A stretch of 64,000 nt of DNA from Candidatus Cloacimonadota bacterium (GTDB lineage Bacteria > Cloacimonadota > Cloacimonadia > Cloacimonadales > Cloacimonadaceae). Each line of letters opens with the position of its first letter. The stretch's first letter is position 1. The position numbers and the translations under genes were made by a program. The notes under the pieces are model-generated. The model was not told where the DNA came from and ran no database searches. It saw only the letters and a program-made list of their open reading frames with translations. Below, piece by piece: positions 14,522-16,925 of this stretch. The DNA lies in the NCBI GenBank assembly GCA_020532085.1, contig JAJBAV010000002.1, forward strand, positions 62,001 to 126,000, read 5' to 3'.

Positions 14522-15565
14522 ATGAGATCAAGCAAGTTACGAGTATTGATCCTGGTCACATTGTTAACCGGGCTTGTGTTGGCAGGCTGCCACCTGCTGA
14601 CGGATACAGAACAAGTGTCCAAGCCGGTCTTCAGTCCTCCCGGAGGAACTTATAATAATGTGGTTGAAGTTGTTATAACCACAGCCACTCTGGGCACGAC
14701 CATCCTGTACACCACCGACGGCAGCGATCCCAACTCCAATTCTCTCGTGTACAGTGGTCCAATCCACGTTGCACAAACCACAACCCTGAAAGCCAAAGCC
14801 TACAGAAGCGGCCTCCAGGACAGCGCCATCGCCACAGCGAACTACACCATCGAACTGCCACCTCCACCTGAGAATTTTGTCTTTGTGCCCGGCGGCACCA
14901 TCTATCCTACAACTGGCATCTACACCGATGGGCTCACTGTTCCATCATTCTACATCGGCAAACACGAGCTTACCAACGCCGAGTGGAACGCGGTGATGGG
15001 AACCGGCGGAGGGGACGATTATCCCCATGCCTATGTAAGCTGGTTTGGCGCCATCGAATACTGCAACCGGCGCAGCCTGATGGAGGACCTGCCTCCCTGC
15101 TACAGCTATCTGGATTACGGCAGCAACCCCGACGACTGGCCTTCCGGATGGAACACCGACATCAACAATCATCTGAACGTCTCCTGCGTCTGGACCGCCA
15201 TCGGCTACCGGCTTCCCTCTGAAGCTGAGTGGGAGTATGCTGCCCGGGGTGGATTGCAGACGCATGGCTACACCTACAGCGGTAGCAATGACCTCGATCT
15301 GGTGGGCTGGTATTCTGGCAACAGCAGCTACACATCACATCCCGTGGGACAGCTTGCTCCCAACGAACTGGGGACCTACGACATGAGCGGAAACCTATGG
15401 GAATGGTGCTGGGATCGCTACTCGCCAACAAGTTCCGGCCGTGTGCCTCGCGGCGGTAACTTCAGCTACTATGCCTGCGGCTGCACCGTTTCGTATCGGA
15501 TCGACTACTACGCTACGTACAGCGGCTGCAGCATAGGCTTCCGCATCTGCAGGGTTTCCCCTTGA
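14522..15565 (+). CDS. Lipoprotein with chitobiase-type domain and FGE/C-type-lectin fold, probable DGR target
   Basis: 347 aa. The signal ends in the lipobox LVLAGC (Cys about 23), so it is probably membrane-anchored. Residues 33-110 form a CHB_HEX_C-type repeat (FSPPGGTYNNVVEV, TILYTTDGSDPNSNS). Residues 117-347 are an FGE-sulfatase domain: FVFVPGGTIYP, FYIGKHELTNAEWNAVMG, GYRLPSEAEWEYAARGG, MSGNLWEWCWDR, GFRICRV. FGE-fold lectins of this form are common variable proteins of diversity-generating retroelements. The segment between PRGG and IGFR, where relatives carry a run of Asn, here reads NFSYYACGCTVSYRIDYYAT and so on. No reverse transcriptase or template repeat was found in the window. 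A REP/RAYT island follows directly. Confidence 0.88.
   Translation: MRSSKLRVLILVTLLTGLVLAGCHLLTDTEQVSKPVFSPPGGTYNNVVEVVITTATLGTTILYTTDGSDPNSNSLVYSGPIHVAQTTTLKAKAYRSGLQDSAIATANYTIELPPPPENFVFVPGGTIYPTTGIYTDGLTVPSFYIGKHELTNAEWNAVMGTGGGDDYPHAYVSWFGAIEYCNRRSLMEDLPPCYSYLDYGSNPDDWPSGWNTDINNHLNVSCVWTAIGYRLPSEAEWEYAARGGLQTHGYTYSGSNDLDLVGWYSGNSSYTSHPVGQLAPNELGTYDMSGNLWEWCWDRYSPTSSGRVPRGGNFSYYACGCTVSYRIDYYATYSGCSIGFRICRVSP
15458..15532 (+). other. Candidate DGR variable region (VR) at the 3' end of the FGE-fold gene
   Basis: These 25 codons cover residues 313-337. At least 18 end in C, in the set AAC, TTC, AGC, TAC, GCC, TGC, GGC, ACC, ATC and GAC. That is the spectrum expected when AAC codons in a template are mutated at their adenines. 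The flanks (CGCGGCGGT before; GGCTTCCGCATCTGC after) encode the invariant RGG and IGFRIC that bracket VRs in FGE-type targets. No second copy of this stretch was recognised in the window. Confidence 0.6.
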
Positions 15566-15680
15566 TTTTTGGGTTTTTCCCTTATTGCCTTTTGCAGGCT
15601 ACAGAGCGCAGGGAAGCAGATCCGAGGCGGAAATGAACCTGGGGGTGCAGGGGGATTTTTCCCCTGCCCTCCGCATTTAC

Positions 15681-15955
15681 GGAACACCGGATTCATCCGG
15701 TCGGTCCACCAGATTCATCCTGATACCGGAACACCGGATTCATCCGGTCGGTCCACCAGATTCATCCTGATACCGGAACACCGGATTCATCCGGTCGGTC
15801 CACCAGATTCATCTGGTTTTTGAAATGAGGGAACTTGTTTCATGTGTGGCGCACTCCGCTTTGCGAAATTTGATCCGCACCGGATGAATCCGGCGTTCCG
15901 ACCGGATAAATCCGGCGTTCCGACCGGATGAATCCGGTGTTCCGTTGAGAGGTAG
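15681..15955. repeat. REP-like palindrome cluster, left of the RAYT
   Basis: Three tandem units of 47 bp start at 15681, 15728 and 15775. Each contains ACCGGATTCATCCGGT, a near-perfect palindrome, and a second half CCACCAGATTCATC. A 70-bp spacer with GGGAACTTGTTTCATGTGTG follows, then three copies in inverted orientation (CCGGATGAATCCGG or CCGGATAAATCCGG, each followed by C/TGTTCCG). Another fragment of the spacer (GCACGCTCCGCTTTGTGAGA) appears at about 15971. Confidence 0.9.
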
Positions 15956-16044: not shown

Positions 16045-16677
16045 ATGCAATACACCCTACTTTACAAACGCAAACTGCCGCACTTCCAACCCCGAGGCGG
16101 CACATTCTTCATCACGCTGCGTCTGGCGTTTGACATTCCGGAAAAGTATCTGCAGGCTTTGAACAGATACCGCGAATCGCTGCGGAAAAACCATGCCAAG
16201 CCTGAGGATGTGGCCCTAAGCAAAGAAATCATCAAGAAGAAGGTCTTTGCCTTTGAGGACGATCTCTTTGACAAATGCGGGGATGGGGTCACACTGACCA
16301 ATGATCCAGCGGCTGGGATCATCCAGAATAAACTGCTGGAGATGAACGGTGACCTCTTATATCTTTATGCCTTCACGATCATGCCCAATCATGTGCATAT
16401 GCTGATCCGGCCTTTGCTGCGCGAGGGAGTGCAGGTCAGCATGTCGAACATCATCAAACAATTCAAAGGATCCACCGCCCGCCTGATCAATCTGTCGATG
16501 CACCGCGAAGGACAGCTCTGGTTCCGGGAATACCATGATCATTGGGTGCGCAGCCAGCAGGAACTGATCAATGTGATCGAGTATATCAGGAACAATCCGG
16601 TGAGGGCTGGTCTGGTGAAGGAGGCCCGGCAGTGGCATTGGACTTGGCTGAATCCCGAGCTATGGCAGGAGGAATGA
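16045..16677 (+). CDS. REP-associated tyrosine transposase (RAYT, Y1_Tnp/HUH family)
   Basis: 210 aa single-strand DNA transposase related to IS200/IS605 TnpA. The HUH metal motif is in FTIMPNHVHMLIRPL (about residues 112-125) and the catalytic tyrosine in ELINVIEYIRNNPVRAGLV (about 174-190). The N-terminus RGGTFFITLRLAF is the usual first strand. The gene is flanked on both sides by clusters of the same palindromic repeat, the hallmark of RAYT loci, whose products are thought to recognise and mobilise REP elements. The reading frame is intact. It sits between a probable DGR target gene and rnhB. No IS ends or target duplication were identified; the flanking clusters are probably its substrates. 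Confidence 0.93.
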   Translation: MQYTLLYKRKLPHFQPRGGTFFITLRLAFDIPEKYLQALNRYRESLRKNHAKPEDVALSKEIIKKKVFAFEDDLFDKCGDGVTLTNDPAAGIIQNKLLEMNGDLLYLYAFTIMPNHVHMLIRPLLREGVQVSMSNIIKQFKGSTARLINLSMHREGQLWFREYHDHWVRSQQELINVIEYIRNNPVRAGLVKEARQWHWTWLNPELWQEE

Positions 16678-16688
16678 CCGGAACGCAG

Positions 16689-16925
16689 CATTGATCGAAC
16701 ACCGGAACAGTGGATTCATCCTAATACCGGAACAACGGATTTATCCGGTCGGTCCACCAGATTTATCCTCACACCGGAACACCGGATTCATCCGGTCGGT
16801 CCACCAGATTCATCTGGTTTTCGAATTGAGGGAACTTGTTTCATGTGTGGCGCGCTCCGCTTTGTGAGATCCGATGCGCACCGGATAAATCCGGCGGTCC
16901 GACCGGATAAATCCGGTGTTCCGCA
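16689..16925. repeat. REP-like palindrome cluster, right of the RAYT
   Basis: It has the same architecture and orientation as the left cluster: direct units (ACCGGATTCATCCGGT or ACGGATTTATCCGGT, with CCACCAGATT), then the 70-bp spacer containing GGGAACTTGTTTCATGTGTG and GCGCTCCGCTTTGTGAGATC, then inverted CCGGATAAATCCGG units ending near 16925. The two clusters therefore form a long direct duplication around the transposase. Confidence 0.88.

Follow-up and report, generated by a model that had tools for sequence, protein, structure and literature searches.

A lipid-anchored FGE-fold protein of a Cloacimonadota bacterium as a remote target of a diversity-generating retroelement

Diversity-generating retroelements (DGRs) can have targets away from their core: the DGR of T. 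denticola has remote lipoprotein targets, including TvpA (PMC4891356). In the Bordetella phage BPP-1 efficient homing requires a hairpin behind the variable region (VR), and the hairpins of phage DGRs have GC-rich stems of 7-10 bp and GRNA loops in the sense strand, and are located 4-34 bp behind the VR (PMC3240598).

Here we describe a gene found in a stretch of 64,000 nucleotides (the window, C2:62001-126000) of a Candidatus Cloacimonadota assembly that comprises 2.8 Mb in 98 contigs and is 99% complete. The window's own genome is denoted G000 (contigs C2, C4, C10, C22 and C31), other G numbers denote further genomes of the family, and WIN stands for the window gene in pairwise comparisons. 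The best named matches in the genome_contigs collection are Cloacimonetes/Cloacimonadota MAGs. From the sequence comparisons presented below we are highly confident that the gene encodes a lipid-anchored, FGE-fold target of a DGR acting in trans, and that it was last written, probably, by an earlier or missing template.

The window gene and its variable region

The gene and its parts are as follows.

14522..15565, + strand: target gene, an intact ORF encoding a lipoprotein of 347 aa; signal peptide with lipobox LVLAGC, Cys23 at 14588-14590
14636..14836, + strand: CHB_HEX_C_1 / Fn3_assoc linker-type domain, aa 39-105 (Pfam PF13290, E=7.9e-21; PF13287, E=5.2e-18)
15011..15550, + strand: FGE-sulfatase (C-type-lectin-like) display domain, aa 164-343 (Pfam PF03781, E=1.1e-31)
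15437..15552, + strand: VR, with homology to the C10 template repeat (E=8.7e-8) and mismatches concentrated on template adenines
15458..15535, + strand: VR core, in which 14 codons that are AAC/AAT in templates read S Y Y C G Y I D Y Y Y G C S

The 347-aa reading frame ends in ...RVPRGGNFSYYACGCTVSYRIDYYATYSGCSIGFRICRVSP*. As is typical of DGR targets, the VR is 3'-terminal in the gene and falls within a C-type-lectin/FGE fold. The top PDB sequence match of the protein is TvpA itself, the variable protein of the T. denticola DGR (2Y3C, E=2.9e-23), and the alignment spans the variable segment. The predicted structure has a mean pLDDT of 59, with the C-terminal FGE part below 50. Directly behind the gene there is a REP-associated tyrosine transposase (16045-16677, above the NCBIfam cut-off), with 22/47-bp REP-like repeats on both sides (15680-15944 and 16701-16923); these align with repeats of G010 in many registers.

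All of the 14 Asn-derived codons of the VR core retain C or T in the third position, and the lysine codon AAA of the template corresponds to CCT at 15446-15448. Between RGG and GFR, 18 of 26 codons are NNC and 22 of 26 are NNY, as compared to 139 NNC codons out of 312 in the remainder of the gene (Fisher p=0.02; p=0.05 for NNY). This codon-ending bias was set aside as main evidence, since the whole gene is C-rich at position 3 and p values of 0.02-0.05 are weak taken alone. The preliminary description of this DNA had counted 18 NNC codons among 25; the 18 were confirmed, and the denominator is 26 by our recount. It had also placed the VR at 15451-15565, i.e. at the right location and somewhat short: template homology begins at about 15437 and the functional 3' module reaches about 15670. 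Its central claim, a DGR variable-region signature in an FGE-fold lipoprotein, is borne out because comparison with real templates, the orthologues and the 3' hairpin take the pattern beyond chance.

The retroelement on contig C10 and the template of the variable region

An RVT_1 search of the assembly gave two reverse transcriptases (RTs), both off the window's contig. The earlier statement that no RT is in view therefore holds for the 64 kb window and fails elsewhere, since one of the two is a DGR RT on C10, where a complete DGR is found in the same assembly:

C10:68000-69046, - strand: DGR reverse transcriptase (RVT_1, GNLTSQ motif, YMDD)
C10:69048-69356: Avd, exceeding the NCBIfam DivGenRetAVD curated cut-off
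C10:67888-68008: Asn-rich template repeat, downstream of the RT, encoding RVKRGGSWNNNANNCTVSNRNNNNNATNTNNNIGFRC in frame
C10, upstream of the RT: variable FGE gene of 445 aa, the cis target
C10, flanking the RT: gene of an HRDC accessory protein

Besides the template itself and the cis target, which is 80% identical, a DNA search with this template retrieved the window locus at 71% identity (E=8.7e-8), C31:13414 (E=3.7e-6) and some weaker matches. In other words, the copy with AAC/AAT codons beside a DGR RT and Avd, which the preliminary description had proposed to look for, is present in the genome, and its suggestion of a trans-acting DGR is supported by a complete element with a matching template. 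An Rfam scan of the C10 DGR locus gave no family. The genes neighbouring the DGR core differ between G010 and G000, which fits mobility or replacement of the core. The second RT (G000:C4:1159-2187) was rejected as a DGR; it is retron-like (PADLOC RT_III-A, E=2.7e-116) and its match to the NCBIfam St85 family is slightly below the cut-off.

In the mechanism that we propose, reverse transcription of the template RNA would introduce errors at adenines; the mutated cDNA would then take the place of the gene's 3' variable region, where the homing sequence and the downstream hairpin mark the site. The Asn codons AAC/AAT would become NNC/NNT on the protein's binding face. We infer that the window locus was rewritten in trans in this manner, and the protein may bind variable extracellular ligands.

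The mismatches between the window VR and its own C10 template, from which one AAC codon was dropped for this comparison, fall on 21 of 38 adenines and 14 of 76 other positions (p=9e-5). With the template of G014, a genome of the sister genus, the numbers are 21/38 and 8/76 (p=6e-7). When a composite template was assembled by hand from those of G000 and G014, 3 non-adenine differences were left in the VR core, all within the SW dipeptide (AGC TGG vs AAC TTC). The cis VR/template pairs have a similar substitution spectrum, in which T and G are commoner than C. In one cis VR (L090, G021:C1) the template lysine AAA before RGG is mutated to TGA and reads RV*RGG, which indicates that a DGR event at this codon may turn the target off.

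The same tendency is seen between relatives. The orthologue in G010, another species, is syntenic with the window gene, 2.7 kb upstream matching at 87% and about 0.9 kb downstream at 81-91%; it spans two contigs that share 83 identical overlapping bases and were joined by script. The relative in G012 is 78% identical and 114 downstream bases match at 86%; its upstream flank has no full-length match to the window, so strict synteny holds for G010 only. WIN and G010 differ at 19 of 31 A-derived VR sites (61%), at 4 of 41 other VR sites (10%) and at 122 of 957 sites in the remaining gene (13%). The respective values for WIN and G012 are 21/34, 4/44 and 176/957, and the comparison of G010 with G012 is concordant with both. 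By codon position (1/2/3), WIN and G010 differ at 50/33/12% in the VR and at 10/7/22% in the remaining gene. The differences between relatives are thus concentrated at adenine-derived positions in two orthologue comparisons, as had been anticipated. In a paralogue lacking the 3' module (C22 vs G010 C128), the equivalent segment is almost unchanged.

Cis and remote VRs differ in how they fit the resident template. The cis VRs of five genomes have 0-1 non-adenine mismatches, whereas the remote VRs (window, C31, G010 C54, G053 C14, G053 C42 and G058 C62; the count covers G000, G010, G053 and G058, with a doubtful C27 match left out) have 7-14. Over the stretch RGG..GFR the window VR has 11/65 non-adenine mismatches and one codon fewer than the C10 template, as opposed to 1/66 for the cis target. 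This departure from near-identity outside the adenines bears on recent homing by the C10 template, not on the DGR origin of the VR, and such near-identity need not be expected of all remote targets. Relative to the window VR, the C10 template is longer by one AAC codon and has ACG in place of AGC and TGTCTC in place of ATCTGC. The dipeptide after RGG is AAC TTC in the window, and AGC TGG or AGT TGG in every template found of that type. In place of the ACG and TGYCTC of the resident G000 and G010 templates, the VRs of the window, G010 and G012 have AGC (GGC in G010) and ATCTGC; despite these common markers, the three VRs are mutually unlike at most adenine sites.

A template with the window's markers (TTC) was not found in the genome itself, in 50 family genomes or in genome_contigs, and the CTVS-type template pattern had no match in viral contigs. 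Because the non-adenine markers and the length disagree with the C10 template, the last writer of the window VR was probably an earlier, or a lost or unsampled, template of the same lineage, not the present one. The preliminary description had left it open whether the gene is diversified in trans or has since been cut off; the evidence leans to the latter, given that the cis VRs fit the resident template and the window VR does not. Another remote target in this genome (L088, G000:C31, 1984-3042) shares the FGE/VR end but not the N-terminal half, and its hairpin is degraded, a composition that suggests module shuffling.

The 3' module and its distribution

The end of the gene and the DNA behind it contain three further elements.

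15536..15565, + strand: conserved 3' end of the VR and putative initiation-of-mutagenic-homing (IMH) site, GGCTTCCGCATCTGCAGGGTTTCCCCTTGA, which departs from the template past ...CAG (IMH vs IMH*)
15566..15675, + strand: non-coding 3' module, conserved across genera behind cis and remote VRs
15647..15667, + strand: inverted repeat rich in GC, GCAGGGG-GATTTTT-CCCCTGC; it lies 99 nt behind the VR segment and may form the hairpin/cruciform of the DGR target site

As in DGR targets, an IMH unlike the IMH* of the template is followed by a candidate hairpin/cruciform. Searching for the IMH with up to 3 mismatches gave four genomic places, each at an FGE gene. The pattern GCAGGGGN{5,8}CCCCTGC occurs exactly twice in the 2.8 Mb genome, once following the window VR and once following the C10 cis VR, and folding of the window hairpin stretch gave z=-2.3. 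VR genes of several genera have ...CAGGGTTTCCCCTTGATTTTTG and about 100 more bases in common, and this common stretch often terminates in GCAGGGGGA-TTNT-TCCCCCTGC or near variants. A position scan found no comparable hairpin at the templates. We only infer a function for the hairpin, because its distance and loop differ from those of phage DGRs. Reading it as a terminator is less natural: at C10 the hairpin separates the target gene from the HRDC-Avd-RT genes, and no T run follows it.

A 146-base query found the module in 31 of the 50 family genomes. CTVS-type templates are present in 9 family genomes and Avd exceeds the cut-off in 13, 9 of them with the module, i.e. strong Avd genes occur in 9 of the 31 module-bearing genomes; since the counts come from draft genomes with a strict Avd cut-off, they miss some DGR cores. 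Even so, some almost complete module-bearing genomes (e.g. G019, G001 and G023) have no Avd above the cut-off, and orphan DGR targets seem widespread in the family. We tentatively raise the possibility, doubtful as it is, that scattered targets with a common homing module are the stable part in this family, while DGR cores (RT, Avd and template) come and go. If this were true, the window gene would count among many orphan targets of long standing, diversified anew by passing templates, and would not be a satellite of the resident DGR. As the module is mostly found without a strong Avd, such turnover around lasting targets is directly testable, and the common module makes remote targets findable through DNA search. 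Three loci in relatives (L252, G012:C132; L256, G013:C215; L091, G012:C66) have another template type (NCRVANRNNNNP..), so the family has at least two DGR lineages.

Alternative explanations and relation to known systems

The resident C10 DGR may be diversifying the window gene in trans today, the marker differences being due to patchy cDNA integration and drift. The ORF, IMH and hairpin of the target are intact, as are the RT, Avd and template in the same genome. Nevertheless we consider this unlikely: besides the missing codon and the excess of non-adenine mismatches over the cis target, the AGC/ACG difference lies in the middle of the VR with rewritten codons on either side, and the G010 orthologue likewise derives from the AGC form though the resident template of G010 has ACG. 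It is also rather improbable that the VR was imported by recombination among variable paralogues or by lateral allele transfer, with the differences between orthologues reflecting the sorting of old alleles. Many FGE paralogues have similar flanks, and C31 in the same genome has the TTC/AGC/ATYTGC markers too; but the genome search found no paralogue matching the window VR, the flanks are syntenic, and donor alleles would still be DGR-made, which alters the route and not the origin.

That an exposed FGE loop underwent ordinary diversifying selection, with no retroelement involved, is very hard to reconcile with the data. FGE paralogues are abundant in the genome (59 matched regions), the loop is a binding surface, and selection on amino acids could partly imitate the pattern, as DGR-mutable sites are mostly at codon positions 1-2. 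Against this, 61-68% of the adenine-derived sites are changed as opposed to 9-17% of the adjacent sites, and the third-position C/T is kept throughout the Asn-derived codons. Moreover, a template is present in the genome, the 3' hairpin is shared with the cis target only, and the hairpin-less paralogue (C22 vs G010 C128) has stayed almost the same. The preferred explanation is thus still a remote DGR target with a probably earlier or missing template. The prediction of a trans DGR target, made from raw sequence, is now confirmed, and the locus offers a clean test case in which a single genome with a single DGR has an up-to-date cis target and an out-of-date remote one.

The remote DGR target described here is genuine; the arrangement is already known and the member is new. 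The T. denticola DGR is similar in its FGE-fold variable lipoproteins, its HRDC accessory gene and its remote targets distant from the core, and in strain SP32, too, a remote target has been left over that matches another template type more closely than its own (PMC4891356). The present system differs in that it belongs to another phylum, the target is fused to CHB_HEX_C_1, Avd and HRDC are both present, and cis and remote targets are shown to have the 3' hairpin module in common. The remote variable proteins of cyanobacteria resemble it in their dispersed paralogous targets with template homology near the 3' ends of the genes; however, those C-type-lectin proteins are mostly predicted to be cytosolic and fused to other domains, whereas surface lipoproteins are found here (PMC7517822). 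The BPP-1 DGR (Mtd) has the same RT, Avd, template with IMH*, and IMH followed by a GC-rich hairpin, but it is phage-borne with a cis target (PMC3240598). Its hairpin, like those of the other phage DGRs, is close to the VR and has a GRNA loop, whereas the hairpins described here lie about 99 nt behind the VR and have T-rich loops.
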